Made by a program: the position numbers and the translations under genes | Assembly (NCBI GenBank): GCA_024401275.1 | Contig: JAKSLJ010000006.1 | Coordinates: 49,276-113,275 of the forward strand | Reading direction: 5' to 3' | DNA: 64,000 bases | From: Bacteroidaceae bacterium | Lineage (GTDB): Bacteria > Bacteroidota > Bacteroidia > Bacteroidales > Bacteroidaceae | Shown here: positions 25,740-55,753 of the stretch, in pieces | Layout of the letters: every line of letters starts with the position of its first letter | Position numbering within the stretch: position 1 is the stretch's first letter | The notes under the pieces: model-generated | Told to the model about the DNA's origin: nothing | Database searches by the model: none | Seen by the model: the letters and a program-made list of their open reading frames with translations, nothing else

Positions 25740-25775
25740 AGTACTGATGCTGGAGTTTGTCTATTATAAAGGCTT

Positions 25776-27668: not shown

Positions 27669-27679
27669 TATAGTAATGC

Positions 27680-30562
27680 TTATTTAAAGAAATCGTTAAT
27701 CATTGATATGGTTTTCTGCACACGTTCTTCTGGAGTGATAGTGTCCTCCAAATATAGGAAGTCGAAGCGACTACGTCCGTATTTCTCATTATTGCGAGGA
27801 ACGAACACATCGCGCATGAACTCAAGTCGTTCCTTGAATTTGGCAGCATAGCCTGCGCCCTTTGTCTCGATGATGCAGATGCGGTCAAGTTTGCCTTCAT
27901 TGTCTCTACTGATTACGAGGAAGTCAGGAACATAGAGACCATCATATTGCCAATGCTTCCCTACCTTCTTGTAACACTGGATCTTGAAATTCGTCAGCGT
28001 GTCGTCACCATTGAAGTAATACTCTAACTTGCGGTCATGCATTATGCCACGGAGAGCTTCGCTGAAATATCCTAATTCCAGTCTGCTATCGAAGCGGTAT
28101 GGCAGATAGTGGTAAGTCTGGAGACGTTCTGGATGTGGGTCTTTCTCAACTTCCGACATGATGCCTTTCAATGTCATCTGAATGATTTCATCACTCATAC
28201 CGGGAATCTTTTTCATCTCATCTATCATTTTAAGCTTCTCCTCCGGGATTTTGCCTTTCTCTGGATGTGCATCCCAGTCAAGAATTTGCAATACATCTGC
28301 CTCCTTTGGATAAATTAGGCTGTCGTCAATGACATCTATTGCTTTTGGATGGTCAACAGACAGGATGCTTGCTTCGTCCGGTACGATTTCTTCCACGATG
28401 GTAAAATCGCGCTTAGGCACGAATGCCTTTCGTATCATTGAACGGATATGCTGGTGGTCGTATTCCTCTGAACGCGTTTGGTCATATATGGTTTGCAGTT
28501 GTGCCTCATGTTCCATGAGTTTAGCTACACTTAGAGTTCCCAATGACTCGCGTGCTATTTCGTGAATCCACCATTGGAAAGATTGGTTGTCAATACTGTC
28601 GAATGCCAGTTCATCGTAGCTTACCACTTGACCATTTATGTCCTGAACGGTAACAAGAGTTTTGTCCAGCTTACGCAACAAGGCAGGATCGGACAGACGA
28701 GCAGATGTATCCGGTTGTGATTCAACTTCAATGGTTTTATACAATACGCGGAACTGATAGAAGTCTATTGGTGGTACATCCTTGCGAGAGTAGCGCTCTA
28801 TGTGCTTACGAGGAGTTTCTGGCTTCTCTGCAAAATCTTTTAGCGAAATGTTCTGCTGTTGCTTGAGTTCCTTGTTAAGTTTGTCTGCATTCTGCTTGTT
28901 CATCCAGATGAGTGCGGACTCACGTTGTCCTTTGACCACCTTTCGCAGGCAGCGACAAGATGTCTGTAGCACCATGTTGTTAGGGCATACACCTTCGTGT
29001 GGTAAGATAACGCTTGTAAGACTCTTGCAATCCCATCCTTCCTTACCTATTTGTGCAAGAAGTATTATGCGAACACGACTCAATGGAGAGTTGAGATTCG
29101 CAAATTCTGCCTCAGAGCCTTCTGGTTCCGGGTATTGCTTATTGCCCTTATGGCGCTTTAGTATAACATCTGCAGGGTTCATGCCGCACTCTGTGACAAT
29201 CTCCGATACGAGAGGGTAGACAGAGTCTTCGAGTGTAGGAATCTGTCCACAATAGATAGCAAGTTTTGCGCTTGTGCCATCGGTATAAATGGTATCTTTG
29301 TATTTTTCGAGGAACTCTCGTACACCATTCCTCAGAATGTCTTCCGATACGCTATCTGCATATTTTACCGTAGGACGTTTCAGGAAATTATCAATTCCAT
29401 CTATCAAAGGATAATAATATACAACATTGCTGATATTAGTGTTCTTGATGACAAAGTTTCCGCCTATCGTTGTCTTTTCGGCTTTGTCAAGGTATGGCGT
29501 ACCAGAAAAACCAAGTACGTTGCAGAAACCTTTGCTTTCTGTTGCCCATTCGGTAACGACCTGACGAAGTTTTATCTCGCCATCAGTAGCATGGTGTACC
29601 TCGTCAATAAATACGGATAAATGTGGCATCTGACCGATAATCTTGCGGAGTTCATTGGCGATGTCATTCTTCTTCAACTCTTCTTTGAGTTTTTTATGCT
29701 CTTCCTCGCTCAAATGTGAACTATCAGAAAGCTGAGGGCTCTTTTCTGTATTGTTAAAACGGTCAAGGATAACCTTTTCTGCATTGGTAATAGCAATAAT
29801 GCCCATTGCCTCACCACCTATAAGGTGGTTGTTTATCTTCTGGGCGTTAGGATTTTTTACAATATTACTTTTTTTTGCGGATTTCAGTTCGTCAAGTATC
29901 TCAAACTGTATGAGTCTCTTTAGTTTTTGAGCCTCTACCTCTGAGAATATCCAAGAAGGATCAAATTCGCGAATGCTGCGCAGGCTGGGTATGATACTTG
30001 ACTTTAGGGCTGATGGCGCAAGAATGAGGAAATTGTGAGCCCAAACAGGATTCTCAGGTTCATTCTGTGCAAAATACAAATCAATGTAGATAAATGCTGC
30101 CATTAAGAAGGTCTTGCCAGCACCCATTGGAAGGCTGAAAAGATAATCGGCATACGTCACACCATAAAAAATGTCACGCAATGTTTGCTCATAATCAACC
30201 TCATTGGCATGGTGACGAATGAACTTTTCCAACTCAGGAGCAAGCTGTTTGCCATTCTTGTCTTTCAGACGTGAATATTGGAACAAAGCTAACGCAGCTT
30301 TGTTTGTTTCAAGTACATTACGTGTCTCTACGGTAAGTTCCTCTGCTCCTATGTTGGTGTCATTGAAGTAGCCTTCTGAAAACAACAAAAACAAAGGTTT
30401 CCCTTTGCACGCTATCTTCAGAAACAGGTATGTCTTTATTGCTTCAATCTGGGCATCACGCATCATGCCTCTCTGCTCAATGTACTGGAGCAAAGGGCGT
30501 ATGGTGCAATCCTCTGATTGAAACCATTGGTTTCTTTTGTGTGTTATTAGTTCGTAGAACAT
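27680..30562 (-). CDS. res: Type III restriction enzyme Res subunit (helicase-nuclease)
   Basis: A 960-aa SF2 translocase with nuclease. Walker A is PMGAGKTF near residue 147, the DExH box is IDEVHHA near 318, and motif III is GFSGTPY. Motifs V/VI follow (VILPHEGVCPNN, LQTSCRCLRKV). The C-terminal PD-(D/E)xK site reads DFLVIS...ICIIETKG near 880-900. With Mod it cuts DNA away from paired unmethylated sites. It lies between the DUF4268 gene (7 bp upstream) and mod. Confidence 0.93.
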   Translation of the reverse strand: MFYELITHKRNQWFQSEDCTIRPLLQYIEQRGMMRDAQIEAIKTYLFLKIACKGKPLFLLFSEGYFNDTNIGAEELTVETRNVLETNKAALALFQYSRLKDKNGKQLAPELEKFIRHHANEVDYEQTLRDIFYGVTYADYLFSLPMGAGKTFLMAAFIYIDLYFAQNEPENPVWAHNFLILAPSALKSSIIPSLRSIREFDPSWIFSEVEAQKLKRLIQFEILDELKSAKKSNIVKNPNAQKINNHLIGGEAMGIIAITNAEKVILDRFNNTEKSPQLSDSSHLSEEEHKKLKEELKKNDIANELRKIIGQMPHLSVFIDEVHHATDGEIKLRQVVTEWATESKGFCNVLGFSGTPYLDKAEKTTIGGNFVIKNTNISNVVYYYPLIDGIDNFLKRPTVKYADSVSEDILRNGVREFLEKYKDTIYTDGTSAKLAIYCGQIPTLEDSVYPLVSEIVTECGMNPADVILKRHKGNKQYPEPEGSEAEFANLNSPLSRVRIILLAQIGKEGWDCKSLTSVILPHEGVCPNNMVLQTSCRCLRKVVKGQRESALIWMNKQNADKLNKELKQQQNISLKDFAEKPETPRKHIERYSRKDVPPIDFYQFRVLYKTIEVESQPDTSARLSDPALLRKLDKTLVTVQDINGQVVSYDELAFDSIDNQSFQWWIHEIARESLGTLSVAKLMEHEAQLQTIYDQTRSEEYDHQHIRSMIRKAFVPKRDFTIVEEIVPDEASILSVDHPKAIDVIDDSLIYPKEADVLQILDWDAHPEKGKIPEEKLKMIDEMKKIPGMSDEIIQMTLKGIMSEVEKDPHPERLQTYHYLPYRFDSRLELGYFSEALRGIMHDRKLEYYFNGDDTLTNFKIQCYKKVGKHWQYDGLYVPDFLVISRDNEGKLDRICIIETKGAGYAAKFKERLEFMRDVFVPRNNEKYGRSRFDFLYLEDTITPEERVQKTISMINDFFK

Positions 30563-30569
30563 CTATAAC

Positions 30570-31490
30570 CTATTTATCGTATTTCTTAATTACCGCCTTA
30601 ATCTTCAGGCACATCTCGTATAGCCATGCGAAGCCTTGTTCCCAATTTTCACATTTGTTTATGTCAAAAGGTTTGCTCACGATGAAGCGAGAAGCTTTCT
30701 TTGCGTCACGCCATTCAACGGTAGTGCCAAGTTCCTTTTCAATCTCTTCTGCATGATCTTTGAACTTCTTGAAGATCGTCTTATCCTCATTGATATAGAT
30801 ACCTGCTGTTATGACATTCTTCTGGGTATTGACCGTCATGTCAATGTGATATGCAGACGAACCAACAGCAAGGTCATACCAATGTTGAGCCTGTGGGGTG
30901 CGTAATTTGAACGTCTTGGTAAATGTTGCATTACTGTTTGCATGGTTGTTGAACTCCTTCCAAAACTCTTGTTTTAGGGAAGCAGATTCCGAAAGGCTTG
31001 TACTTTTCTTCATAGCCTTAGCCCAATCGTTCGGACGTTCAATAATGCTAAATTTGGGCGCTGGCTCTGAGTCATTGATTTTCCACACCTCTATCTCAAT
31101 AAGGAAAAAAGCAGAATTCTCATCCGTATGTTGGTTGAGCCATTCTATAGCCTTGCGATGTTCGTCGCGAGCTTTCTTCACAATCCAGATTATAACTTCA
31201 GCATCCTTACCTGAAGCGTATGTTATAATCTTGCCAAGATGGTCGTGATTGGTTTCTTCCAACTGATTCTCAATAATAATCTTACGCCCAGTACCTTCTT
31301 CAGTGGCATAAAGGTCAACGCTGAAATCGCCGACGTTTGACTCTTGCTCTTCAAGGATAATGTCAATTCCAACCGCCTCACTCAGCAATTCAAGGTTTTC
31401 CTCCTTTGCTAACCAAGGTGTGAAGTCTTTTGCTTCGTGCTTCCAGATAGAACGAAGATCTGTTATCTTTTCAAGTTTACCGAGTTTCAT
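30570..31490 (-). CDS. DUF4268 protein with PD-(D/E)xK-like core
   Basis: A 306-aa protein of the DUF4268 family. The N-terminal half has a nuclease-like pattern, VGDFSVDLYATEEGTG then KIIIENQLEETNHDHLGK, where Asp and Glu-Asn-Gln take the place of a D...ExK site. The C-terminal half (from about 165) is an alpha/beta domain ending in a basic helix. Members often sit in restriction or other defence loci, as here between the ATP-binding regulator (10 bp upstream) and res. Its activity in this context is unknown. Confidence 0.8.
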   Translation of the reverse strand: MKLGKLEKITDLRSIWKHEAKDFTPWLAKEENLELLSEAVGIDIILEEQESNVGDFSVDLYATEEGTGRKIIIENQLEETNHDHLGKIITYASGKDAEVIIWIVKKARDEHRKAIEWLNQHTDENSAFFLIEIEVWKINDSEPAPKFSIIERPNDWAKAMKKSTSLSESASLKQEFWKEFNNHANSNATFTKTFKLRTPQAQHWYDLAVGSSAYHIDMTVNTQKNVITAGIYINEDKTIFKKFKDHAEEIEKELGTTVEWRDAKKASRFIVSKPFDINKCENWEQGFAWLYEMCLKIKAVIKKYDK

Positions 31491-31500
31491 ATTATTTAAT

Positions 31501-32889
31501 TTATCTTATCACCTCCCAATGTCCGGTCTTATCGCTTCCTACACGCTTTATTAATCCTGCTGATTGCATAGCTGCAATGTCACGTTTTATGGTTATAATA
31601 CTGGTGCCTAATGATTCTAATATTGTTTTGGCAGTTACAGTATCATTTACAGTATCATTTATCGTGCCATTTTTTATGATATGATAAATCTTTTTCTGTC
31701 TTTCAGTAAGTTGCGATAATTTTACCGTATCATTTACTGGGACATTTACAATATCATCCTTTCGCTCGTCCTCGACAGTTCCGACATTATTGGCGATCTC
31801 ATAATACCTATCAGACAACTTGTAGCCATCTTGTGCTGAGATGAGTAATCCTTCGTCGATAAGTTTGCGTAGTGTTACCTCATCTGTATGGCGTTGGCTT
31901 TCGCCTTGCGAAGCACGGAAGAGGGCGAGAAGGTCGAATACATTGAGTTTGTTGTTTGCTGGTCGGGCATTCTGCAACTCACGAGCATAGAGCATGAAGG
32001 CAGGGTACTTGATTTCGCCAGGGAGTCGTAGGCATACCTGCCATTCGTCTGTCAAAGAATAATCAGGCAAACGCTTTCCATCCATTAGGCAATGGTAGAA
32101 CATCTTATCAACGCCTTGTCCGCTCTTCTCGATGAAACCTGCCTTCTGCAATACCTCGGTGATGAGTTTGCAACGTGGCATACTATTAACCGTAAGGATA
32201 TTGTCCACATCAACACCAACAGGGAAACCTCCAGCATTGGTGATGATGAGTTGGTCGGGATATTGCTTGATGACCACATCGCTCTGAATGTACATCACAC
32301 GATGGCAGCAAGCATTGAGGATTGCCTCTCGTACTACTTCTCGATTGAACGCAGGAATGTCACCAATGCGGAAACCGTCATTGTAGTGTTGCAATGGATT
32401 GCTGGCAGGTTGGTTGATGTAGTTCCACACAGAATCAACCATCAGTACAAGTGGTTCTTGGAATTCCTGACGTGCAGTGTATTCTATCATAGAGTGATAT
32501 AGGCGGTACTCTACAGTCACGCGATTGCAATACAGATGCTTGCGTATTGCTTCTGACTTGCCAAGAAGGATGAGGGCAGCATTGGTCAACTGACCATCCT
32601 TATTCATGAGAGCAAAATCACGGAGCACCTGCAAAGTTGGTGTGCTCACAAACTCTGGCTTGTTCCAACGTTGGGCATAGCCCTGCTTTATCACACGGAT
32701 TGCTTCTTCGTCAAGGTCTTCAAGCGAGAGTCCTTCGCAGATCTTCTCAGAGAAGTCAGGTTCGGACTCTTGCAGAATCTTGAGATACATGGCATCGGAC
32801 ATTGGCTTGAGTTCTTCGCCGACACGCATCAATGGCACGTCTTCGGATTCGCGCATCTGCTGGAGCTGCTGTATGGTGAATTTATTCAT
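31501..32889 (-). CDS. ATP-binding regulator (HATPase_c_4 / RecG-C-like) with C-terminal winged helix
   Basis: A 462-aa protein. The ATG at 32889 (MNKFTIQQLQQMRES) is chosen; an upstream TTG would overlap the HTH gene. The middle carries the GHKL-type ATPase signature of this family: REAILNACCHR, IITNAGGFPVGV, and GFIEKSGQGVDKM. The N-terminal AlbA_2-type Schlafen domain is poorly conserved. The C-terminus has a repeated VNDTV element then a winged helix (LTERQKKIYHII, SIITIKRDIAAM). It probably senses a ligand and controls this restriction operon, a known arrangement. Confidence 0.78.
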   Translation of the reverse strand: MNKFTIQQLQQMRESEDVPLMRVGEELKPMSDAMYLKILQESEPDFSEKICEGLSLEDLDEEAIRVIKQGYAQRWNKPEFVSTPTLQVLRDFALMNKDGQLTNAALILLGKSEAIRKHLYCNRVTVEYRLYHSMIEYTARQEFQEPLVLMVDSVWNYINQPASNPLQHYNDGFRIGDIPAFNREVVREAILNACCHRVMYIQSDVVIKQYPDQLIITNAGGFPVGVDVDNILTVNSMPRCKLITEVLQKAGFIEKSGQGVDKMFYHCLMDGKRLPDYSLTDEWQVCLRLPGEIKYPAFMLYARELQNARPANNKLNVFDLLALFRASQGESQRHTDEVTLRKLIDEGLLISAQDGYKLSDRYYEIANNVGTVEDERKDDIVNVPVNDTVKLSQLTERQKKIYHIIKNGTINDTVNDTVTAKTILESLGTSIITIKRDIAAMQSAGLIKRVGSDKTGHWEVIR

Positions 32890-32927
32890 TATTGTTGCGG
32901 TCTTTGCTTTTGATACGTTTATCTCAA

Positions 32928-33149
32928 TCAAGAATTCTTCTCTTGGTTGAACTCTTCTTGTCTTACAAGTTCCTGTACAGGCACCTCGAGTGCATTAGCA
33001 ATAGCGATAAGTGCCTCAAGACTTGGTTGGGTGGTATTGGTCACCCACTTGGAAACAGTTGCAGGATCCTTGCCCAGTTTGTCGGACAACCATTTGTTGT
33101 TCAGGTCGCGTTCTGCAAGTACTACCCGTATTCTATTTAATTTTGCCAT
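32928..33149 (-). CDS. XRE-family HTH regulator
   Basis: A 73-aa Cro/CI-type protein. The helix-turn-helix is at about residues 20-45 (LSDKLGKDPATVSKWVTNTT), followed by EALIAIANALEVPVQELV. It is the first gene of the type III restriction operon and divergent from rloA, so it probably regulates both through the 300-bp spacer. Confidence 0.9.
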   Translation of the reverse strand: MAKLNRIRVVLAERDLNNKWLSDKLGKDPATVSKWVTNTTQPSLEALIAIANALEVPVQELVRQEEFNQEKNS

Positions 33150-38462: not shown

Positions 38463-38560
38463 TGCAAAGGTATGGTGTCCTGAAAAGGTTTCGCAAACAA
38501 TTCATGAAATGTTTTCGGACATATCGTGAACTTCACGGCAAGTACGCTCTTTTCACCGAA
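38463..38560 (-). promoter_or_regulatory. Dyad-controlled promoter, copy A
   Basis: On the minus strand: TACCTTTG at 38472 down to 38465, TTTGCGAAACCTTTTCA upstream of it (overlapping the -33 box), and GTGAACTTCAC centred at 38531, 59 bp from the -7 start, flanked by a GCGTAC half-site. The same layout occurs at 53634 and 55669. Confidence 0.75.
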
Positions 38561-41189: not shown

Positions 41190-44100
41190 TTAAACAAATC
41201 TCACAACAAGTCCGCTACTTGGATAGAATATCAAGCGGTCAACAATAGTCTTGCCTGCCTGCTTGAGAGCTGCTGCATAGCAATCAAACTGCCCCTTGTA
41301 TTTGCCTGCATAGAAGCCTTTCTCGTTATTTTCGTCCTCAATGTGCGTAACACCTAATTGGCACGTCTTATAATCAACCAGCACACATCCTTCTGCGGTC
41401 TCCCATACGAAGTCCATGCTGCCAGTAAAGATTTGTCCATTGAACTTGTGCTTGAATCCTAATTCGTGATATGTTTTAACAGGTTTGCCGTATTTCTCTG
41501 TCATGAGTCCATAAAACCTTTTCCAAGTATCAATAATGTCCGTAGCAGTTGTATCTCCTGGTTCTAAACCATAAGCAGCCAATGTTGCGTTAATATGCTC
41601 AATGCTACTGTCGGACTCTATGCCACAGAATATGCTGTGAATGCAATTACCTATAACATTATCTTCAATAGAACCCTTGAGGCGCAGACGCTTATTCCAA
41701 TACGCTACACGCTCTACCTTCCCCATATCCTTCATGCCACTTGGTTGTTGGTCGCGCAAAGGAGCATCGCAAATATTGCTCTTAAGTGTTTGCACAAAAA
41801 CAGGAGGCATATCTTCTCCAGCGACCTCGCCGAAAGCAGGTTCAAAAGTTGCATTTTCCTCGGACTCTGCAGTCACACCTTCAGATGTGTCTTCAGAACC
41901 TTCTTCAGAAGTTAACTCTGGCTCAGGCTCTTCCAAATGTTCAATCTTGAAAGATACTTCAATACCAAGACAATCATAATCGTCACCAGAAGGATTACTG
42001 TTAGTTGAGAGTCCAATCTCATCAAACCAGTTGAGTTGGGCAGCACCTTTCGCGGAGATTCGTGCGGCAAGTATAAGTACATCCGCAGCACGAGTCATAC
42101 CTACATACATTAATCTTTTACCTTCACGAACATTCTCTTCCTTGATGGCTTTTATGTGTTCCTCATCGCAACACTGAAGCATCTCTGGAGTAAGATTAGG
42201 GCTGGCCCCAAGAACCCATGGCTGTAAGCGAAGTCTCATTTGTGGATACAGATTCTCTTTCGTTGGTAACTCAGGATGTTCCGTATTGACACCTTTATAG
42301 TTTCTTGACCCCCAACGAGGGGAATCATTCAGTTTGTTGTTGAGAGAAGCCAAGATAACATATTTCCACTGAAGTCCCTTAGAGCCATGATATGTTGTGA
42401 GCGTTATGCCATCTGGATTGCCATCTATGGTCATTGGAGCATCCCAAGCATAGTTGATAAAGCCTGGAATTGTAGAAGGAATGGCCATCGTACAGCATCT
42501 CTCCTCATATTCAGCAGCTAAATCCATAACATACTGAAGAATAGAAGCATCACCACACATTCTTACTGCCTCTGAATAAAGATCCTGTTCAACGATAATC
42601 GTCTCAACAATATTCTTGATGGAATGATGTTGATAATTTGGGCGTGAGGCAACAATGCGTTTAATCATAGGAACATCCGCAAGAAACTCTCCGCGTTCCT
42701 CCTTAGGAAGCTCGTCCCATGCAAGCTTTTCGTCTATAATCTTTCCGTTAATGTATCCTTTAGCCGTAAGGTTAGCTATCTGCGTTTTTGCAATTTCATC
42801 GTATGGGTTATCGATAATCTTCAGAATCGCAAAAATCAAGTCATAGACACCTACTCGCTTAATGTCATCATCGTCTTTTATTGTCCTTTCATACGAGCGA
42901 TTAACAGGTAAGTCGTATTCATATAATATGTCAGCCAGTTCATTTAAGTAGTCATTACCACGAGCAAGAACGGCTATATCAGAAGGAGTAACTCCCTGAT
43001 TGTTTACAAGATCGTTGATATAATATGCCAAATCTCCAATTTCCTCAGAAAGATTTTTTCCATGCAATTCAACAAAGCGAAGACTATTCTCTATCTGCTT
43101 TCCGTCTTCCGCTTTCTTCTCACATGTTTTTAGGACTACACGCTCTTCACTCATCTCACTGAAGAGAGGAATGAAGGTTTTATTGACAGCGTCAACAATG
43201 GCTGGTACAGAACGATATGACGTATCAAGTGGCTTTGCAAGTTTGCATGAATCGATACTGTCAATATTGTCCACAACAGCATCTGTTAGTATAGAGTCTG
43301 TTCCACGGAAACCATAGATAGCCTGCTTAGCATCGCCAACCCAATAGCTTTGAACTAACAGATTTGACAACCTATCGAACATTTGAACCTGCAAAGGAGA
43401 ACAGTCTTGGTATTCGTCAACAAAGGCATACTTATATTCCTCGGCAATCTCTTTTCTCACGTCTTCCAATTGCGGTTCTGTAAGCAGGCGGAACATATTG
43501 CGCTCCATATCGCAAAAGTCAAGGATGTTATGACGCTCCTTATAGTCTTCGTAGCCGCTTTTCCATCTTTCTGCAAGATTAAAGATAGTAGTGATGTACT
43601 TTTCTTCAAGGGCGACAACCTCCTCGCTTTGAGCATACTGAGCGTATGAACCAATAAAATCTTCACCAATACTCTTCAATGCTTTGGTTCCTCCGAGAAG
43701 GGTTGAAAGATCCTTCGCAAAACCATAGCTTTCTGTTACATTACCATGCAACTTCTTCCAAGCCTCTGCGTTACCCTTTGACGTACAAAAAGGTTTAGCT
43801 TCATCCAGAATACTGTTCAATTCTTTGTAGGAAGGTGGCAAAACATGAAGGCCTTCTATCTTAAAGCGTCTAACCAGATTCAGGGAATGCTCAAGACTTG
43901 GTTTGAGATCCTTGATGTTGAAGCCGCTTGCCAAATCCACGATTTTCTTCAAGTCTTCTTTCCAGAATGTTGTATTCGACTTGTCTGCTCCGTATGGCAG
44001 AGCCTTCTCCATAGAGAATAGTCTTCCGTATTCATTGAGGAAATGCAGTTCTTCAGATGTAAGCACCTCAGACAAAGACTGATCTATATAGAATGCTTTG

Positions 44101-44438
44101 TCCTCATCAGTCAAAACATTCTGCTCAGGAGTTATGCCCAAGAAGAACCAATAGCGCTGGATGAAAGCGTTGCAAATACCATGTATTGTATTGATAAGAG
44201 CGTTGTCAAGTCTCTGAGCCATAAGCTCTAATTCAGGCATATTCTCCTTCTTAGCCTTTTCGTAAAGCTTTACTTTGGCTCTTTCACGAATTTCTTCAGC
44301 TGCCTTAACAGTAAAAGTGGTAATGATGACCTGCTCTGGTTCCACTTTTTTCTCAATAATCAGGTTGGCAAGTGTTTCTGTCAAAGTGTATGTTTTACCA
44401 CTACCAGCACTTGCACTTATGTATGTTATATTCTTCAT
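41190..44438 (-). CDS. AddA/UvrD-like helicase-nuclease
   Basis: A 1082-aa SF1A helicase with a C-terminal PD-(D/E)xK nuclease. Walker A SASAGSGKTYTL starts at residue 8; motif Ia is ITTFTVKAAEEIRERA; motif II FVDEYQDCSPLQ is near 342; motif V TYHGSKGLQW near 685; motif VI MYVGMTRAADVLIL follows. The nuclease is at about 990-1025 (GSMDFVW, LVDYKT). Together with the AddB-like partner it could unwind and degrade DNA ends. The gene overlaps the AddB-like gene by 1 bp. Its place in a four-gene operon with a protease and a sensor nuclease suggests a defence role rather than housekeeping AddAB. Confidence 0.85.
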   Translation of the reverse strand: MKNITYISASAGSGKTYTLTETLANLIIEKKVEPEQVIITTFTVKAAEEIRERAKVKLYEKAKKENMPELELMAQRLDNALINTIHGICNAFIQRYWFFLGITPEQNVLTDEDKAFYIDQSLSEVLTSEELHFLNEYGRLFSMEKALPYGADKSNTTFWKEDLKKIVDLASGFNIKDLKPSLEHSLNLVRRFKIEGLHVLPPSYKELNSILDEAKPFCTSKGNAEAWKKLHGNVTESYGFAKDLSTLLGGTKALKSIGEDFIGSYAQYAQSEEVVALEEKYITTIFNLAERWKSGYEDYKERHNILDFCDMERNMFRLLTEPQLEDVRKEIAEEYKYAFVDEYQDCSPLQVQMFDRLSNLLVQSYWVGDAKQAIYGFRGTDSILTDAVVDNIDSIDSCKLAKPLDTSYRSVPAIVDAVNKTFIPLFSEMSEERVVLKTCEKKAEDGKQIENSLRFVELHGKNLSEEIGDLAYYINDLVNNQGVTPSDIAVLARGNDYLNELADILYEYDLPVNRSYERTIKDDDDIKRVGVYDLIFAILKIIDNPYDEIAKTQIANLTAKGYINGKIIDEKLAWDELPKEERGEFLADVPMIKRIVASRPNYQHHSIKNIVETIIVEQDLYSEAVRMCGDASILQYVMDLAAEYEERCCTMAIPSTIPGFINYAWDAPMTIDGNPDGITLTTYHGSKGLQWKYVILASLNNKLNDSPRWGSRNYKGVNTEHPELPTKENLYPQMRLRLQPWVLGASPNLTPEMLQCCDEEHIKAIKEENVREGKRLMYVGMTRAADVLILAARISAKGAAQLNWFDEIGLSTNSNPSGDDYDCLGIEVSFKIEHLEEPEPELTSEEGSEDTSEGVTAESEENATFEPAFGEVAGEDMPPVFVQTLKSNICDAPLRDQQPSGMKDMGKVERVAYWNKRLRLKGSIEDNVIGNCIHSIFCGIESDSSIEHINATLAAYGLEPGDTTATDIIDTWKRFYGLMTEKYGKPVKTYHELGFKHKFNGQIFTGSMDFVWETAEGCVLVDYKTCQLGVTHIEDENNEKGFYAGKYKGQFDCYAAALKQAGKTIVDRLIFYPSSGLVVRFV

Positions 44439-47113
44439 TATCGTTTCAAGAATCCAAAATTAGAAAATCCGTTTTCTGTTTTCAAATCGTTGTAAGTAGC
44501 CAACGGCATAAGGTTTCTCTCCTCAGTATTACATCCATAATCCAAGTACTCAGGTTCAAGACCTTCGCCATTTTCTACACGCCCACCCATTATCTCTTCT
44601 CTGCGATACTTGTACGAATTCTTTATCTTCTCAAAGATGTCTGTTACAGCATTTTCATCAATGTCTATGCGATAAGAATTTTCTCCTTTGAAATGGCTCG
44701 TGCTATAGAGATGACCTTCAGGCATAAGGAAATATGCACATTTTGCAACATTCTTATTGTCTTTCGCCTTAATGAGCTGTTGATAGAGTACCAGCTGGGC
44801 TGCCGTGTTGTTCTGGAGCTTACCCACATAATACCGCTTTGAAGAAGTCCATTTGAAATCAAATACAACCACATCTCCATTTTCGTCTTTAAGCGTCATA
44901 TCAACAAATCCCTTTACAGGTATGGCGATATCATCAGCAGTGCGCAAACCTATATCTGTCTCATCAATAGGATATTCGCACTCCAAGACCTCAAGATTAT
45001 TACTCGAGATAATCTCCTTCAGGTTATCAATGCATACCTTCAACTCTGTTTTCAGTTGCTTCATCGCCATAATGTTCTCTTTCTGCAAAAGGACTGCACC
45101 GTATGCATTTATCACTTTGTCAAAAGCTTCACTGTAATCTGTGGTATCTGCCGATGGAGAGAAGAGTTCTGCGATAACGGCATGCGCAACATTTCCTTGA
45201 GTACGCTTCACACCTTCCAATTCAATGGTATTGCTGCCCCTTAACTTCAGGACATAGTCCATGACATAGTCTATAGGGTATTGAATAAGAGTCTCCAATG
45301 AAGAATGGCTTTCGTGCGTAGGCCAGTTAATCTTTTCTGCATTTTCAATATAAGCATACTTTGGCTGACTACCATTCCAGAAATTTTCCATTTCAATTTC
45401 AGGAATCCCATCAAACGAAACCTGCTTATAGAAATCTTCAATATTCACATTGTTTTCAAGCCAAATCATGACAGGATGCTTTGCCAAGTTCGTTGAACCG
45501 CTCTTGTCGCATTTCACTATAACAAGCTTTTCGTCCACATGGGCGAACGGATACATCATCACTGCATTGTAGTATGCACGCTCCTGAACTTTGTTCCAGA
45601 AAGTCATCTTGTCTTTAAGCGAATTGTATTCCAAGGCTGACAGGAATGAACAAGAAAGACGATGCTCTGATACGCCATATACATCACACCATATTGCAGT
45701 CTTTGCATTGTCAACGATGGCTGCCCCAGAACTGATCGTGTCACGACATCCTGCCTGGGCATGATACTGACAGAAATCGCCTGTTGAAGAAAGACTTGCC
45801 ACCCAACCTTCTACCAAAGAATATTGTACCTTATCGCGCTCCTCTTGCTGTGTTAACTTAGAGAAGCTGTTCAGCATATCAAGCAGTTTGAAGAGTTGCT
45901 CGCGTATTTGTTTTTCTTCAGCGCTTTCGTTAAGGATTATTATACGTTGCTGACACCACGTGCACAGTTCCTTTGCAAAAAGCCAAAGCTTAGCACGATC
46001 TATCAATATGTCTTCTTGCTGCTGATTTTCTGTTATGTGGTCAAATTCATCTATGTCAGGAAGGAAGAGTGAAGCATAAAGTTCCCTCTTCTTGAGGTTT
46101 GAATTTTTCTTTTCATCAAGTTCCTCTGGAGTAAGTTTTTCAGCATCTTCTATTTCAAGGTAATCACCTGCAATATACGCATCAATCAACTCCTGGCACT
46201 CTTCGTTTCTATACCCTCCTTTACCTACTATCATATCCGCAAGGTCATAACGGAATTTTCCTGGAAGCGGATGGACAGGAGTTGTGAGCCACTGAAGTAG
46301 AGTGTTAAGGTCAAGCGGCTTATTGAACAGGTTGATTCCAAGGGCAAGCAACTGAAGCGTTATAGGACTTGCATTGCTGAGTGTGGAGCCAGCGACGGGA
46401 TGACCAGCCATACGGAGCCAGTTGTCCTGAAGTTTGTTGTCGCCATTGATCCACACATTGTAGGCATCATCTGGAAGGGATGTCAAATATTGTATAGCAT
46501 CTTCTTTTAGAGTAAACCATAAAACTTCAAGTTTCTCTGGTGAGAGGAGCTTTGTGTAGTCATCCTGAAGCTTGTATTCTATTTTGCAGCCGCCATCTTC
46601 AAGTAGCGTAAGTAACTGCTGAACAAACGGTTTCAGCATTTTCTTTTTGAATGGCACTATTATATGACTGCCTTTCAGTATAGTAGGATTCTTTTTGAGA
46701 GCTTCAAATACTTTCTTATGAAATTCAACATTTCCTGGACAATGAAAGTCCTTCTCCACATCAGAAAGCACTTTCATTCTCTGGCTTGCAGTTGGCATGT
46801 CGAAGGTCCATCCATATTCTGCAAGTTCATCTCGCCACAGTAGACACTTCTGGGCAGTTGTCAAAGCTGCCTTCTCAAAAGATGCGCTGAACACATTATT
46901 TTGATTTTGCTCCATATATTTGGAGAACACCGAGTAATATTCAGCCAGTCGTTCACCAGCAGAAATATCCTTTTGGTAAACACCAAGCATAGTTGCCAGC
47001 ATGCCTACCAAACCGCTTGTGTTTTTGTATTCACAGTCAAAAGCAATGTTTCCATGCTTCTGAAAATCAATGTACAGATGTCCATTATACTCAGGACTAT
47101 AGTAAATCTTCAT
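44438..47113 (-). CDS. AddB-like PD-(D/E)xK nuclease
   Basis: An 891-aa protein. The ATG at 47113 (MKIYYSPEYNGHLYIDF) is chosen; longer in-frame versions would read back into the protease gene. The C-terminal RecB-type nuclease is near residues 735-775: GFVDMTLKDENGDVVVFDFK, then a Gln-Leu helix (AAQLVLYQQLI). The N-terminal two-thirds is an inactivated helicase-like body, as in AddB. The four-cysteine iron-sulfur staple of classical AddB is not visible. It should form a heterodimer with the AddA-like product. Confidence 0.78.
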   Translation of the reverse strand: MKIYYSPEYNGHLYIDFQKHGNIAFDCEYKNTSGLVGMLATMLGVYQKDISAGERLAEYYSVFSKYMEQNQNNVFSASFEKAALTTAQKCLLWRDELAEYGWTFDMPTASQRMKVLSDVEKDFHCPGNVEFHKKVFEALKKNPTILKGSHIIVPFKKKMLKPFVQQLLTLLEDGGCKIEYKLQDDYTKLLSPEKLEVLWFTLKEDAIQYLTSLPDDAYNVWINGDNKLQDNWLRMAGHPVAGSTLSNASPITLQLLALGINLFNKPLDLNTLLQWLTTPVHPLPGKFRYDLADMIVGKGGYRNEECQELIDAYIAGDYLEIEDAEKLTPEELDEKKNSNLKKRELYASLFLPDIDEFDHITENQQQEDILIDRAKLWLFAKELCTWCQQRIIILNESAEEKQIREQLFKLLDMLNSFSKLTQQEERDKVQYSLVEGWVASLSSTGDFCQYHAQAGCRDTISSGAAIVDNAKTAIWCDVYGVSEHRLSCSFLSALEYNSLKDKMTFWNKVQERAYYNAVMMYPFAHVDEKLVIVKCDKSGSTNLAKHPVMIWLENNVNIEDFYKQVSFDGIPEIEMENFWNGSQPKYAYIENAEKINWPTHESHSSLETLIQYPIDYVMDYVLKLRGSNTIELEGVKRTQGNVAHAVIAELFSPSADTTDYSEAFDKVINAYGAVLLQKENIMAMKQLKTELKVCIDNLKEIISSNNLEVLECEYPIDETDIGLRTADDIAIPVKGFVDMTLKDENGDVVVFDFKWTSSKRYYVGKLQNNTAAQLVLYQQLIKAKDNKNVAKCAYFLMPEGHLYSTSHFKGENSYRIDIDENAVTDIFEKIKNSYKYRREEIMGGRVENGEGLEPEYLDYGCNTEERNLMPLATYNDLKTENGFSNFGFLKR

Positions 47114-47186
47114 AGAAATTGGTTGTAAAAAATCGTTTTCTTTATAGTCTTTACATAAACCTACTATATTGCAAAATACCCAAAGC

Positions 47187-48434
47187 CTAATCAAGTACAA
47201 GTTTTGAAGCCTCAAATTCTTCTGCCATGACCTCAGAAAAGAGATTTGCAACCTCTTGAGTCTCAAGATGCATTTTTTTCCCAAGTGACATCAAAACATT
47301 GATCTCCTCAACATTGATGTTAAGATCTGCCATAGCAAGTTTCACCAAGAATCTCAACATTGCCGGAGCCAGTTCCGCATCAAGTTTAAGAATACGTCGA
47401 ATGGTTTTGCCTAATTCGGACTCCCTGTCTTCAACATTCATAACATCAGCATAGAATTCCTTAGGCTGCATTTGTGAATCAGAAATGAGTCCGTATATCT
47501 GCATCAGCTCTTCTGATGTTATCTCTCCATCAGCTTCTGCCATTTTTGTTCCTGCGAGAGCAACAAACTTTGCGATAAGGAAATCCAGTTCCGAATCACG
47601 CAACTTGTAAAGAATAGACATCAAATAGTTCATCTCTTCTTCGTACGCTTCATCACCGATTTCGCTCTTTAATGCCATGAGAAGTAATGATTTTACACGA
47701 ATAGCCTTTTCCGGATGAGTATGCTGGAACACATCTTCAAAACGACTGATTTGCTTAAGTTCCTTATCGATACTATTCAAGTATTGGTCAAAGTTTCGGA
47801 AACCTAAATCGCCTATCGCCAATCCACACTCAAGTTTCTCTAATGCAGAGAACACAATGTCAAGGTCTGGACATGCCAGATATGCATAGCGGTCAGCTAT
47901 AAGTTCTGCCAGTCTTGACCATAAGAGGTACTTCTCATTGATAAGTCCAGTGAAGTTTTCTTCATTTGGGTAGATGAAATTCGTAATAAGTCTTAATGTG
48001 GAAGTGTCCTCAATTATGTGTCCAAGTTCATGACCCATGATGGCTTTCAACTCATCAATAGTCATAGTGCTTAGCAGAACAGAGTTTATTGTTACAATAT
48101 GTGGATCTCCCTTGGTTTGGCTTGCAAAAGAAGCAGCATTGAGCTCACGAGAAAATTCGATGTATAGTTCTACATCCTTCTTGAAACCCAAGGTTTCTTT
48201 AACCTCTTGGAATGCATTGTACACATCCGTGTACATCTCTGGATAGCGTCTTAACAACTTTTCGTCAAGCAGGATGCCTCCTTTTTGATTGATTTCCTCA
48301 CGTACTGCCGCATTAGATGCTTTTGCACATTTAAGCGTTTTCATAACTTTAAGTACAGCATCACCTTGCAAGGCATCATACAATTGCTGACGCAGTTCTT
48401 GTTCAAGTGGAATTTGGATGATTCTTTTTGCCAT
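47187..48434 (-). CDS. M48-type zinc metallopeptidase with TerB-like C-terminus
   Basis: A 415-aa soluble protein with no signal or membrane helices. The zinc site is GHELGH with His135, Glu136 and His139; the third ligand is likely the Glu of AELIADRYAY. The C-terminal part has a TerB-like pattern (KMAEADGEITSEELMQIYGL near 290, LAMADLNINVEEINVL near 370). Cytosolic M48 proteases coupled to TerB-type helices are uncommon. It is 12 bp after the EVE-like/nuclease gene and 73 bp before the AddB-like gene. Confidence 0.82.
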   Translation of the reverse strand: MAKRIIQIPLEQELRQQLYDALQGDAVLKVMKTLKCAKASNAAVREEINQKGGILLDEKLLRRYPEMYTDVYNAFQEVKETLGFKKDVELYIEFSRELNAASFASQTKGDPHIVTINSVLLSTMTIDELKAIMGHELGHIIEDTSTLRLITNFIYPNEENFTGLINEKYLLWSRLAELIADRYAYLACPDLDIVFSALEKLECGLAIGDLGFRNFDQYLNSIDKELKQISRFEDVFQHTHPEKAIRVKSLLLMALKSEIGDEAYEEEMNYLMSILYKLRDSELDFLIAKFVALAGTKMAEADGEITSEELMQIYGLISDSQMQPKEFYADVMNVEDRESELGKTIRRILKLDAELAPAMLRFLVKLAMADLNINVEEINVLMSLGKKMHLETQEVANLFSEVMAEEFEASKLVLD

Positions 48435-48446
48435 AATATAAAAAGA

Positions 48447-50036
48447 TTATTTCATTTTTGCGACTACATCACGTCCGATAAACTTTTGTAATTCATTGAA
48501 AATTTCAGGTTTTAACAAGTCATACCAAGTGTGATCGAAAACAAGGTCTTGCTCACCGCGGAAAGCCTCCTTCTTACGTTTGTAGATACGAATGATATTT
48601 TTGTCGCAGATGCCAAACATCTTTGCTGAAAGTGGGTTTGCGTATGACATTCCCTGGTTATATGCCTTCTGCCTCTCATTATTGTTATACATATCATACT
48701 TTGCCTCAATGAGGAAAGGAGCCTTAACTTGGTACTGACTTTCTGCATCTTTGAAGAAAACAAAATCAGGAATAGCCTTCTCCTTTCGTCCAAATTTCAC
48801 AATAACCTGGCGAGTCCAGTCTTTTCCATCCTCCGAGCTATAGCCAAGTTTCTCAAGAAGCGGAATAAGAAGTTTTTCCTCTACATCCTTCTCTATCTTA
48901 CAGTCTTTGGCAAAATCTATCTCAGGTGCTTCGATACGAGGAAGAACAGATGTGTCAAATCCCTTAGCTTCAAACATGCGCAGCAACTGGTTATAGTCTT
49001 CTATTTTCAGTTCTACACCATTGATTCCACGAAGTTTACGACGAACTATTGAAACGTTCTTCATATATGGATCTTCTGTAAGTTCTTTGAAAGATATATG
49101 AGGAACTTCTATCTTGTTCACCACCAAAGAACGGTTGCACCAATAATCAAAAGGATTAACATTACCGTCCTGCCCTGCACGCCATACCGAATGAATACAA
49201 CTGTTAGGAGCAACGGCGTAAACCACAATGATATCACCACGTCTTGTAGCCTCATTGCATGCCCATACATTTTCCGTAATATCGGGCATAGCTTTATAAT
49301 CATCCTTACTTGCTCCTGTTAACCAGATACGAGTTGGAGCAGGCAAGTTATCGACTTGCACCTTATTGTCATCATTATCTCCTATAGCATTTGGAGCAAA
49401 GGAATAAAGCAAAGCGCAAAGCTGAGCCTTCGTAAGTTCGTTTTCTGCTCGATATTTATCCAAAATACAGCAAACATCATAGTAATATAGCAATCGCAGA
49501 TCCGGGTTCTTCTGGAGCGGAATACCAGGAAGCTCAATCCCGAGGTAGTTACAGCGATTTTCAAAAACCTGATAGTTCTGATTAAACAGAATTGGATAAT
49601 ACAGACTTTCTTCCCACATAGCATACATTGCAATTGATAATTGTGGAATATATGATGCTTTGAGTCTGAGGTCTCCAGACGAGCAGAAAACACTTAAAGG
49701 AACAATTTCTTTAGATTCTTCTGTCTCATGTCCCCAATAATAAAGTTCAATGCCTCCCATGAACTGAGAGTAGAACTCGCCTTCATCCTCAATTTTAGCA
49801 ACGTCTTCGTTTTGATTTAAGAAATCACGAATTGACAAATAGGCTAGGTTGAATAATTTAACAAACACGTCGGGACTATATGCATTGTAATAGTCCTTTT
49901 CCTTTTTTTCCACAAGAGAATAGATAGTTTCCAATTTCTTGTCCCATAGTTCATCCTCGTCAGCCTTAAAGGTAAAAGCATCAACAACAGCTTTTCCTTC
50001 TGGCGACTCAAGAAAAATTTTGTGAATGTAGTTCAT
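48447..50036 (-). CDS. EVE/PUA-like sensor fused to HSDR_N-type nuclease
   Basis: A 529-aa protein. Residues 1-225 are an unnamed helical domain. Residues 235-300 (APTRIWLTGASKDDY, VWACNEATRRGDIIVVYAVA, CIHSVWRA) have the look of an EVE/PUA fold, a pocket used to read modified bases. The C-terminus is a restriction-type nuclease near 390-460: EEKLLIPLLEKLGY, IPDFVFF, PFLIEAKYD, with Asp and Glu-x-Lys in place. It leads the four-gene operon. The nuclease call is firm, the EVE call moderate. Confidence 0.7.
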   Translation of the reverse strand: MNYIHKIFLESPEGKAVVDAFTFKADEDELWDKKLETIYSLVEKKEKDYYNAYSPDVFVKLFNLAYLSIRDFLNQNEDVAKIEDEGEFYSQFMGGIELYYWGHETEESKEIVPLSVFCSSGDLRLKASYIPQLSIAMYAMWEESLYYPILFNQNYQVFENRCNYLGIELPGIPLQKNPDLRLLYYYDVCCILDKYRAENELTKAQLCALLYSFAPNAIGDNDDNKVQVDNLPAPTRIWLTGASKDDYKAMPDITENVWACNEATRRGDIIVVYAVAPNSCIHSVWRAGQDGNVNPFDYWCNRSLVVNKIEVPHISFKELTEDPYMKNVSIVRRKLRGINGVELKIEDYNQLLRMFEAKGFDTSVLPRIEAPEIDFAKDCKIEKDVEEKLLIPLLEKLGYSSEDGKDWTRQVIVKFGRKEKAIPDFVFFKDAESQYQVKAPFLIEAKYDMYNNNERQKAYNQGMSYANPLSAKMFGICDKNIIRIYKRKKEAFRGEQDLVFDHTWYDLLKPEIFNELQKFIGRDVVAKMK

Positions 50037-50066: not shown

Positions 50067-50137
50067 CAAAGTTATAGATAAATTTGTGAATCCCAAAATT
50101 ATAGATCAGAAAAAGCATTTTTCATGCGAAAAAATGC
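50067..50137 (-). promoter_or_regulatory. Promoter and palindrome of the four-gene operon
   Basis: Minus-strand TAACTTTG (50074 down to 50067) lies about 30 bp before the start at 50036. A dyad GCATTTTTC-atgc-GAAAAAATGC at 50115-50137 lies about 40-60 bp upstream of it, a plausible regulator site. It differs from the GCCATTATTTGGC element of the neighbouring genes. Confidence 0.5.
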
Positions 50138-50243: not shown

Positions 50244-50840
50244 TTAAAGATTATAGCTGGCAACAAGAACGTCATACTCTTTTGCTGCTAGATTGCTACA
50301 GATTCGTTTGATTGCATGGCCGACCTGTATCCACACACCAATGAAGTCTGCGTTTTGGATTGCGGATTTATATGCGTGAGCATAAGTGTACAATGTGCTA
50401 AGGTGTGAAAGAATATCCTCAACAGAATAGTCTGATTTACAGGTTTGCTCATTCTCGCAGCCCTCAATCTCAATGCAGCCGATATCTATGAGAAAATCAA
50501 GCATGTCGCCTTCATTAGGGAGAAACTCTGTGCGGATTTCTGGAATGTCGTTGAAAAGTTCAACTTCCGTTCCTTCAACAGAACAATGATCAAGATAGAG
50601 CGACTCGGTTTCCTGCATGATAGGAGCGATAGAATCGTACTCTTCTTGTAGCAGACAAACCACAGAACTAAGGTTGCAATACGCGGCTTTCTGGCTTGGA
50701 GTAATGTCGTGAAGGAGAAGTTTCTCTCCGTGGAAAGCCAAGATGTTAAGCAGGTTCATCATTTCGTCCATCGCATTTTGGAGAGCATTGAATCGTTCCT
50801 GCAACGTGAATGTCTTTATGTATTTTTTCATGATTTTCAT
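50244..50840 (-). CDS. Unknown protein with WYL-linked promoter
   Basis: A 198-aa soluble, acidic, helical protein (possible start also at codon 4, MKKYIKTFTLQERF). No domain recognised; several Cys residues cluster at CIEIEGCENEQTC. Its promoter is nearly identical to that of the gene at 52167, and a WYL regulator gene lies between them. Confidence 0.6.
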   Translation of the reverse strand: MKIMKKYIKTFTLQERFNALQNAMDEMMNLLNILAFHGEKLLLHDITPSQKAAYCNLSSVVCLLQEEYDSIAPIMQETESLYLDHCSVEGTEVELFNDIPEIRTEFLPNEGDMLDFLIDIGCIEIEGCENEQTCKSDYSVEDILSHLSTLYTYAHAYKSAIQNADFIGVWIQVGHAIKRICSNLAAKEYDVLVASYNL

Positions 50841-50883: not shown

Positions 50884-50969
50884 GGATTTTGAAAAAAGTT
50901 TCAATTATTCGCAAAAAATCCCCCACCAGTCTGGAGTGAGGGATATAAATATTCATTTGTTATGATTGA

Positions 50970-51944
50970 TTACTCCTCGTCTGTTTCAAATGAATCAGGG
51001 TTGTACATACAGCCCATTTGGGCAGTCCACTCTGCCATTCTGTCATGCAGCCATTGCGGCTCTATGACTTTGACATCAATGCCCTGATACAGCATTGCAC
51101 GCATAAAATCAGGCTCTGGGCGAAGTCTTAGCTCGTAGATTGCGGTCTTTTCGTTCTCCTCAATCTTTTTTTGCGAAGGATGGAACGGAAGATTATCGAC
51201 ATACGGAACCTGCCAATAAGGCACTTCTATCAGTACTCGTTCAAGCGGAGTGGTGTAATTTGCCCATACTCCATAGAACTCTGCGAAATATGCACGTGTG
51301 GAAAATCCTTTCGGATATTTGAAAGTCTCTGGCAGTACCCACAATCGGTCGATGCGATCAAGGGCATAAACCTTTATCACTCCAAACTTATCCCATTTGG
51401 AGAGTTTCTCGTCGTTGTGTGCCGTCTCGCTGAGGTCGTTAGCAAGCAAGTACCATCTGCGCTCGTGCATCTTTAAGCCAAGAGGTGCAACCTTGAAATT
51501 GTGATTGCTGCGTTCCTGTCCGAACTTGGTATATTGCATCTCTATAACCTTGGTATTCTGAAGAGCACGCATAATATCTTCAAGCCACACCTCTCCTGAC
51601 GGCACGTGCTCCAGAATAACTCTGTCGCGCATGTTCTTGCTCTCTGCCACGGCATTGCTGATAGCCATAGATTGTAGCAGCCATCGTGTAGCATCGTCTT
51701 TGAACAAAGAGTGGCGATTTGTTATGGTGTATTTCTGCGTACCAGGCACTCTTTCTATTATCGCACCGAATGTTCCAGGAATCTTTTGACGCCAATTATA
51801 GAACGTCTTCTCAGCAAGTTCACGCTGATCGTCATCATACTCAAGGCGATAACGCCAACTTTCCTGCAATTCAGCGAAGGTCTTGTCTTCCTTTGCCAAC
51901 TGTGCAATAAGCCACAGATACTCTTTGAAAAGTACTTTTGCCAT
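50970..51944 (-). CDS. WYL-domain transcriptional regulator
   Basis: A 324-aa protein. An N-terminal winged helix (about 5-75, LYDDDQRELAEKTFYNWRQK region) precedes a WYL domain (about 140-210): VIEMQYTKFG, APLGLKMHERRWYLLAND, VKVYALDRIDRLWVL. A C-terminal WCX-like extension follows. BrxR/CapW-type WYL proteins repress phage-defence operons and respond to ligands. It lies next to the four-gene operon and between two genes with matching operators. Confidence 0.88.
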   Translation of the reverse strand: MAKVLFKEYLWLIAQLAKEDKTFAELQESWRYRLEYDDDQRELAEKTFYNWRQKIPGTFGAIIERVPGTQKYTITNRHSLFKDDATRWLLQSMAISNAVAESKNMRDRVILEHVPSGEVWLEDIMRALQNTKVIEMQYTKFGQERSNHNFKVAPLGLKMHERRWYLLANDLSETAHNDEKLSKWDKFGVIKVYALDRIDRLWVLPETFKYPKGFSTRAYFAEFYGVWANYTTPLERVLIEVPYWQVPYVDNLPFHPSQKKIEENEKTAIYELRLRPEPDFMRAMLYQGIDVKVIEPQWLHDRMAEWTAQMGCMYNPDSFETDEE

Positions 51945-53633: not shown

Positions 53634-53720
53634 AAGCGTACAGTTTGTGAAATTCACAGATTGTACGCTTTCTTTTCATATACTGTTTGCGAAACCTTTT
53701 CAAAACCCCATACCTTTGCA
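53634..53720 (+). promoter_or_regulatory. Dyad-controlled promoter, copy B
   Basis: The dyad AAGCGTACAGTTTGTGAA (53634-53651) pairs with TTCACAGATTGTACGCTT (53653-53670) with 2 mismatches. TTTGCGAAACCTTTTCA (53686-53702) supplies the -33 box, and TACCTTTG (53711-53718) is the -7 box, 59 bp from the dyad centre. Confidence 0.8.
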
Positions 53721-55668: not shown

Positions 55669-55753
55669 AAGCGTACAGTTTGTGAAATTCACAGATTGTA
55701 CGTTTTCTTTTCATATAGTGTTTGTGAAACCTTTTCAAAACCCCATACCTTTG
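55669..55753 (+). promoter_or_regulatory. Dyad-controlled promoter, copy C
   Basis: AAGCGTACAGTTTGTGAA at 55669-55686 with its inverse to 55705, TTTGTGAAACCTTTTCA, then TACCTTTG at 55746-55753; centre-to-box distance 59 bp. Near-identical to copy B over about 95 bp. The rest of the 55439-55830 gap holds a terminator and a T/G-rich repeat. Confidence 0.8.

Follow-up and report, generated by a model that had tools for sequence, protein, structure and literature searches.

A second AddAB-like helicase-nuclease in a putative defence operon with an EVE-like nuclease and an M48-TerB protease in a Bacteroidaceae genome

Does a compact run of four genes in the genome of a Bacteroidaceae bacterium (GCA_024401275.1) serve in defence against foreign DNA, and do its products work together? 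The run lies in a 64,000-nucleotide stretch of contig JAKSLJ010000006.1 (positions 49,276 to 113,275; hereafter the window), and an earlier note, made from the sequence alone, had read it as a one-strand operon for a base-modification-reader-like nuclease, a cytosolic protease with TerB-like helices and a two-subunit helicase-nuclease, which might act as sensor, protease switch and DNA-degrading effector. Four minus-strand open reading frames were confirmed at 41190-50036 (lengths in amino acids, aa):

48447..50036, minus strand: EVEn, 529 aa, an EVE-like domain (about residues 236-354) and then an HsdR_N-type PD-(D/E)XK nuclease (about residues 380-490)
47187..48434, minus strand: M48-TerB, 415 aa, an M48 metallopeptidase (GHELGH at residues 134-139) with a C-terminal TerB-like domain, both from Pfam
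44438..47113, minus strand: AddB2, 891 aa from its ATG, an AddB-like subunit with a C-terminal PD-(D/E)XK nuclease (PDDEXK_1)
41190..44438, minus strand: AddA2, 1082 aa, a UvrD-type helicase (UvrD-helicase) with a C-terminal PD-(D/E)XK nuclease

The spacing is operon-like and as the earlier note had it, with 12 base pairs (bp) between EVEn and M48-TerB, 73 bp between M48-TerB and AddB2, and an overlap of 1 base between AddB2 and AddA2, provided that AddB2 starts at the ATG at 47113 (891 aa). The methionine of this ATG is an invariant column across 9 aligned homologues; the TTG start of the mechanical open reading frame list would give an AddB2 of 948 aa that overlaps the M48 gene by 98 bases.

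Judged from their sequences, AddB2 and AddA2 form a predicted second, non-core AddAB-like helicase-nuclease. AddA2 matches the Pfam UvrD-helicase model (8.8e-46) and weakly PDDEXK_1 (0.0022), and AddB2 matches PDDEXK_1 (1.1e-14), which bears out the two-subunit reading. Among 11 AddA2 sequences the Walker A residues G11/G13/K14/T15, the D340-E341 pair and the nuclease residues G929, H933, D1008, D1021, K1023, Q1049 and Y1053 are invariant, as are G640, H644, D738, D752, K754, Q773 and Y777 among 9 AddB2 sequences. AddB2-AddA2 thus shares with core AddAB/RecBCD the UvrD-type motor, a C-terminal PD-(D/E)XK nuclease site in each of the two subunits and the order of B before A. On the other hand, AddA2 reaches 193.7 of the 707.65 bits set as the NCBIfam cut-off for addA_Gpos and AddB2 only 11.5 of 486.5 for addB_alphas. 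Conversely, an AddA2 profile gives core AddA 136-165 bits and AddA2 frames longer than 1000 aa 786-1390 bits; some of these frames were used to build the profile, whereas those of L080 (912), L081 (786) and L142 (1013) were not. Core AddB is defined in part by the cysteines of an iron-sulphur (Fe-S) cluster, and the core AddB of this genome ends in C894-x2-C897-x5-C903, whereas AddB2 is without this conserved set: no cysteine column is invariant among the 9 sequences, the best being occupied in 7/9 and 5/9. The core addAB genes lie on a separate contig (L036; AddB 905 aa, AddA 1060 aa) among housekeeping-type genes, which rules out AddB2-AddA2 as the sole addAB of the genome, the case that the earlier note had named as telling against its interpretation. 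All nine other AddB2 genomes tested also gave a core AddB match away from AddB2, although in one of them (G380) only part of the core AddB query matched.

The pair recurs, albeit sporadically. AddB2 was found in 8/301 genomes of the family (one sample, used for each gene) and 3/393 genomes of the order, the own genome being included in each, and AddA2 adjoins it at both order loci and at all 8 of the family loci that were retrieved. These 8 loci come from 7 genomes; one of their AddA2 frames is short, and three break off at the end of a contig. Among 72,556 plasmid records 9 match AddB2 at 22-25% identity, and in the 5 of these 9 that were viewed a UvrD-helicase gene scoring as AddA2 follows directly. 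A phylum-wide search of 395 genomes added 8 with a match; the two best matches were fetched and are read as other AddB proteins, because no AddA2 stands beside them. Phage records held one partial AddB2 match, a scan of viral contigs with AddB2 found no relative, and a search of solved structures found no match for it. Genes of GmrSD type and for C5 and D12 methylases lie near the pair at L075, and a gene for an MmeI-type enzyme precedes AddB2 at L146. Defence-type neighbours were seen in 4 of the 5 plasmid records viewed, namely SIR2 (L139), a VapC-type toxin-antitoxin pair (L140), AbiEii (L141) and AbiEi/RelE/RES (L143); in the fifth (L142) transposase and multiubiquitin genes lie near the pair.

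Further genes near AddB2-AddA2 deserve mention. Schlafen-AlbA proteins of about 950 aa are encoded downstream of AddA2 at L075 (16079-18946, plus strand) and L080 (14844-17696, plus strand). SprT-like zinc protease genes lie directly upstream of AddB2 at L076 (10771-11232, minus strand) and three genes from AddA2 at L077 (953-1393, minus strand), so that a zinc protease is found beside the pair more than once.

EVEn, by domain comparison, is predicted to join an EVE-like reader domain to an HsdR_N-type PD-(D/E)XK nuclease and is likely a modified-DNA-sensing nuclease. Its residues 236-354 align end to end with the EVE domain in a profile-profile comparison (hhalign; 93.9% probability, E 1.6e-7 for the one comparison) with a profile of 14 EVE domains from Bacteroidota genomes, and in eleven controls, made with two unrelated alignments, eight shufflings of the columns and one reversed alignment, the probability was at most 0.3%. 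As far as domain architecture goes, the EVE guess of the earlier note was therefore right. In a Pfam scan EVEn gave only sub-threshold matches to HSDR_N (8.4e-4) and HSDR_N_2 (0.012), models that match 26/37 and 22/37 members of the EVEn family, respectively, at a lax cut-off (E up to 0.5). The nuclease residues E382, D424, E444, K446 and Q461 are invariant across the 37 sequences. The first 230 residues, before the EVE-like part, have no recognised fold, and the solved-structure search gave no useful match for EVEn.

EVEn relatives were gathered from 48 named loci, 13 viral contigs and 2 plasmids and are spread over Bacteroidota, Treponema, Deinococcus plasmids and viral contigs, with 8/301 genomes of the family carrying one. 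BREX genes adjoin EVEn on a Deinococcus plasmid and a GmrSD-type gene does so at L083. Phage records gave no EVEn match; the 13 viral contigs are from IMG/VR (L148-L160), several with EVEn near a contig end. Separately, EVEn was found beside a core-type addA in two unrelated genomes, at L114 (873-4091, minus strand, and 4571-6136, plus strand) and L123 (6247-9612 and 9689-11179, both plus strand). A defence role is proposed for the operon because of the sporadic occurrence of these genes, their carriage on plasmids and viral contigs and their defence-type neighbours, and on this basis we consider it likely that the operon has some part in defence.

The 415-aa protein matches the Pfam models Peptidase_M48 (4.5e-12) and TerB (3.9e-6), carries the HExxH motif and has H135, E136, H139 and E177 invariant in 6 sequences. 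HtpX is a membrane-anchored M48 peptidase; M48-TerB has no such anchor by a crude test, its maximum mean hydropathy over 19 residues being 1.29, with no strongly hydrophobic stretch, and HtpX models give it 15.6-33.2 of 245-422 bits. The description as a cytosolic HELGH protease with TerB-like helices agrees with these results. Relatives of the M48 part occur in 48/301 genomes of the family, 18 of them (own genome included) matching over most of the length; at L038 and L041 the gene lies in runs with PP2C, DUF4062, FGE-sulfatase-like or papain-like genes. Plasmid records gave no M48-TerB match, scans of viral contigs no relative, and the solved-structure search matched the peptidase part only.

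Two loci pair EVEn with one or other of its neighbours in the window. At L100, from the uncultured Bacteroidales RUG12169, the order is WYL, 74 bp, AddB2, 4 bp overlap, AddA2, 29 bp, EVEn, with proteins 33-42% identical to their counterparts in the window. The second, L035, is in the genome of the window itself, where another EVEn (35% identical) is followed by M48-TerB. Here a free-standing frame of 49 aa (6247-6393, minus strand) begins 7 bp after EVEn and is followed by a complete M48-TerB gene; the frame is identical to the start of the window M48-TerB at 25/48 positions (score 120 vs at most 60 for 18 other M48 relatives), and none of the other fetched loci clearly shows such a frame. The neighbour genes at fetched loci were called by a simple longest-frame method, and their starts are rough. 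Neither pairing comes from recent copying of the window operon. The AddA2 of L100 (4257-9611, plus strand) is 1784 aa long, and about 740 of these residues form a C-terminal extension that has no Pfam match; a second EVE domain in this extension was considered and is unsupported (3.7% and 13.9% probability).

These partial pairings, EVEn with AddB2-AddA2 once and EVEn with M48-TerB once, have to be set against several results that weigh against a cooperating four-gene system. All four genes were seen together at the window locus only, and among the 301 genomes of the family none but that of the window carries them together; the idea of a conserved set of four is rejected. EVEn stands without AddB2-AddA2 and without M48-TerB nearby in 47/48 named loci and is thus presumably able to work alone, so that its cooperation with them is putative. 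M48-TerB lies near EVEn in 0/48 named loci, a count that is a lower bound because several of the contigs are short; its relatives are mostly solitary and in varied contexts, and none of 17 other M48-TerB loci has EVEn, AddB2 or AddA2 nearby. Nor is the M48-TerB of L035 the closest to that of the window (28.5% identity vs 30-34% for most others), and the Pfam EVE model matched 0/37 members of the EVEn family.

How do the four proteins compare with known systems? The EVE-type modification-dependent restriction enzymes, EVE-HNH (VcaM4I) and EVE-McrB, also join an EVE-like reader to a nuclease domain; in EVEn, however, the nuclease, with its conserved catalytic residues, is of the HsdR_N/PD-(D/E)XK type rather than HNH or McrBC, a long N-terminal region is present, and the EVE/PUA-like domain, too divergent for Pfam, is found by profile-profile comparison only. 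The accessible part of one survey (PMC7641849) describes EVE-McrB and, in Nocardia, an EVE gene in the vicinity of fusions between a UvrD helicase and a Cas4-like nuclease; that part mentions neither an EVE-HsdR_N protein nor a partner of AddAB type. The UvrD-Cas4 fusions, as far as the available text of PMC5704561 goes, likewise combine a UvrD-type helicase with a PF12705-type nuclease, are additional to RecB and have Type III restriction, WYL and Schlafen neighbours; they are, however, single fused proteins, whereas AddB2-AddA2 is encoded by two genes with a nuclease domain each and stands with EVEn and M48-TerB. Gabija (GajAB) also has a UvrD-like helicase, and membership in Gabija was rejected, as the operon has no GajA-type gene and the GajB match (1.1e-36) covers the shared helicase part only. 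An M48 peptidase is also encoded in the tested RRDM island, but its companions there are Type I restriction, DarTG and RptR, and the portion of that paper available to us does not mention a TerB fusion (PMC12255303). PADLOC-DB 2.0.0 (2023) has no family matching AddB2 or EVEn, none matching the AddB2 of L075 and L100, and one weak match for M48-TerB (REase_II, 0.0039). No literature description of this gene set was found, subscription papers being thinly covered so that a later or closed description is possible; the combination of an EVE-reader nuclease, an AddAB-like degrader and an M48-TerB protease looks undescribed.

The observations of the earlier note were right, and its interpretation as sensor, protease switch and effector is plausible and partly supported. 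What the sequences establish is which domains are present, that the catalytic residues are conserved, that the genes are spaced as in an operon and that a core addAB exists besides; the roles described next are inference. In the reading that we favour, EVEn would recognise incoming DNA, probably by a modified base to which the EVE-like domain responds, and would cut this DNA with the HsdR_N-type nuclease. AddB2-AddA2 would then load on the ends and degrade the DNA. M48-TerB may remove proteins that shield the ends, or may activate or destroy a partner upon infection; this is the least certain step. Leaving the exact task of the protease aside, we give an accessory anti-phage or anti-plasmid operon, in which EVEn cuts and AddB2-AddA2 degrades, close to an even chance. 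The four genes may instead be a stack of independent defence genes that share a promoter only because such genes accumulate side by side, EVEn acting on its own as a modification-dependent restriction enzyme and AddB2-AddA2 as a self-sufficient helicase-nuclease defence module. Such a stack would accommodate both the many EVEn loci without partners and the occurrence of AddB2-AddA2 without EVEn or M48 at each of the 8 other family loci, at the two order loci and in the 5 plasmid regions that were viewed, and the 73-bp gap together with a promoter-like site before AddA2 would permit uncoupled expression. It does not, however, readily explain the close one-strand spacing (12 bp, 73 bp and 1 bp), the tight run of EVEn and AddB2-AddA2 in a different gene order at L100 or the pairing of EVEn with M48 at L035, and we regard it as possible though somewhat doubtful.

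A back-up DNA repair operon, in which a second AddAB and a metalloprotease deal with breaks or DNA-protein crosslinks, is suggested by the SprT-like (Spartan-type) genes near AddB2-AddA2 at L076 and L077, SprT/Spartan proteases being linked to crosslink repair in at least some accounts. It is rendered improbable by the patchy distribution, the plasmid carriage and the restriction, SIR2 and toxin-antitoxin neighbours, as well as by the base-reader domain of the operon nuclease, and no such protease lies beside AddB2 at L075, L080, L146, L147 or in the 5 plasmid regions. Even less probable is a protease-triggered abortive system, in which EVEn or AddB2-AddA2 senses damage or ends and activates M48-TerB to kill or arrest the cell. 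The HELGH peptidase of the operon has its catalytic residues conserved and, according to the accessible part of PMC12255303, the RRDM island, whose role in defence was tested in E. coli, includes an M48 gene, but M48-TerB has no substrate and no toxin-like size or partner that would fit such a role, quite apart from the solitary habit of its relatives.

The accessory operon remains our preferred reading, and in our view the recurring, additional AddB2-AddA2 pair holds more interest than the operon of four genes, which was seen once. Many phages block core RecBCD/AddAB with end-binding proteins. A differently built AddAB that is carried by plasmids, sits among defence genes and in every genome tested comes on top of the core enzyme would naturally stand in for it, and the neighbouring protease hints at how end-bound proteins might be dealt with. 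Gabija has been proposed, in the available text of a preprint (PMC12407980), to act on DNA ends from which phage end-binding proteins exclude RecBCD, and by analogy the second AddAB, with its different architecture, might do the same. EVEn represents a little-described family of EVE and HsdR_N nucleases for which AddB2-AddA2 offers a testable partner. It is tempting to speculate, unlikely as this is, that there is a new defence class built on an Fe-S-less second AddAB with interchangeable partners (EVEn, M48-TerB or SprT, Schlafen-AlbA, methylase), in which, at the present locus, EVEn would mark and open modified phage DNA, the protease would remove the proteins with which phages shield DNA ends from RecBCD/AddAB, and AddB2-AddA2, in contrast to core AddAB, would degrade the DNA without recombination control.

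Upstream of EVEn the window holds the following features:

50067..50097, minus strand: Bacteroidetes-type promoter TTTG-N19-TAACTTTG, 30 bp upstream of the EVEn gene
50115..50137, minus strand: perfect 8-bp inverted repeat with a 7-nucleotide loop just upstream of this promoter, a possible operator or weak terminator
50244..50840, minus strand: gene for a 198-aa protein without a Pfam match, between WYL and EVEn, a doubtful member of the system
50918..50944, minus strand: terminator-like hairpin of 10 pairs and a T run, 3' of the WYL gene
50970..51944, minus strand: WYL-domain regulator, 324 aa (Pfam WYL 3.2e-10, WCX 5.8e-6)

Promoter sites of the Bacteroidetes type number 9 in the window against 1.96 expected by chance, and another of the 9, at 44486-44455, lies directly upstream of AddA2, so that an internal promoter is possible there. 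Terminator-like hairpins are no commoner than chance predicts, the region having 7 where 8.0 would be expected. The WYL regulator is nearby, as the earlier note had it, but it is treated as a neighbour rather than a member of the operon because the hairpin and the 198-aa gene intervene before EVEn, and it is probably a separate transcription unit; it may nevertheless control expression of the operon. A WYL gene lies within three genes of EVEn in 8/48 loci (8/260 near vs 4/434 farther genes, p 0.037), a weak enrichment for which the WYL profile was partly built from the same genes.

The operon was probably acquired horizontally. Its G+C content is not distinctive, and an empty insertion site was not demonstrated among the 16 same-genus genomes compared for synteny, because the flanking genes, found in 12/16 and 7/16 of them, belong mostly to multi-copy or rearranged families. 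Among the defence surroundings of the operon is, 8 kb away, a five-gene restriction-type cluster of Mod/Res kind (21480-32931, minus strand) encoding an nSTAND-like NTPase, an N6/N4 methylase, a ResIII helicase, a DUF4268 protein and a RecG-C-terminal-like ATPase; the DUF4268 protein (306 aa) matches the PADLOC candidate family PDC-S11 (9.6e-121). Three near-identical 33-bp promoter stretches, TTTGyGAAACCTTTTCA...CCATACCTTTG, at 38465-38497 (minus strand), 53686-53718 (plus strand) and 55721-55753 (plus strand), precede genes of 405, 521 and 198 aa and suggest a small co-regulated gene set.

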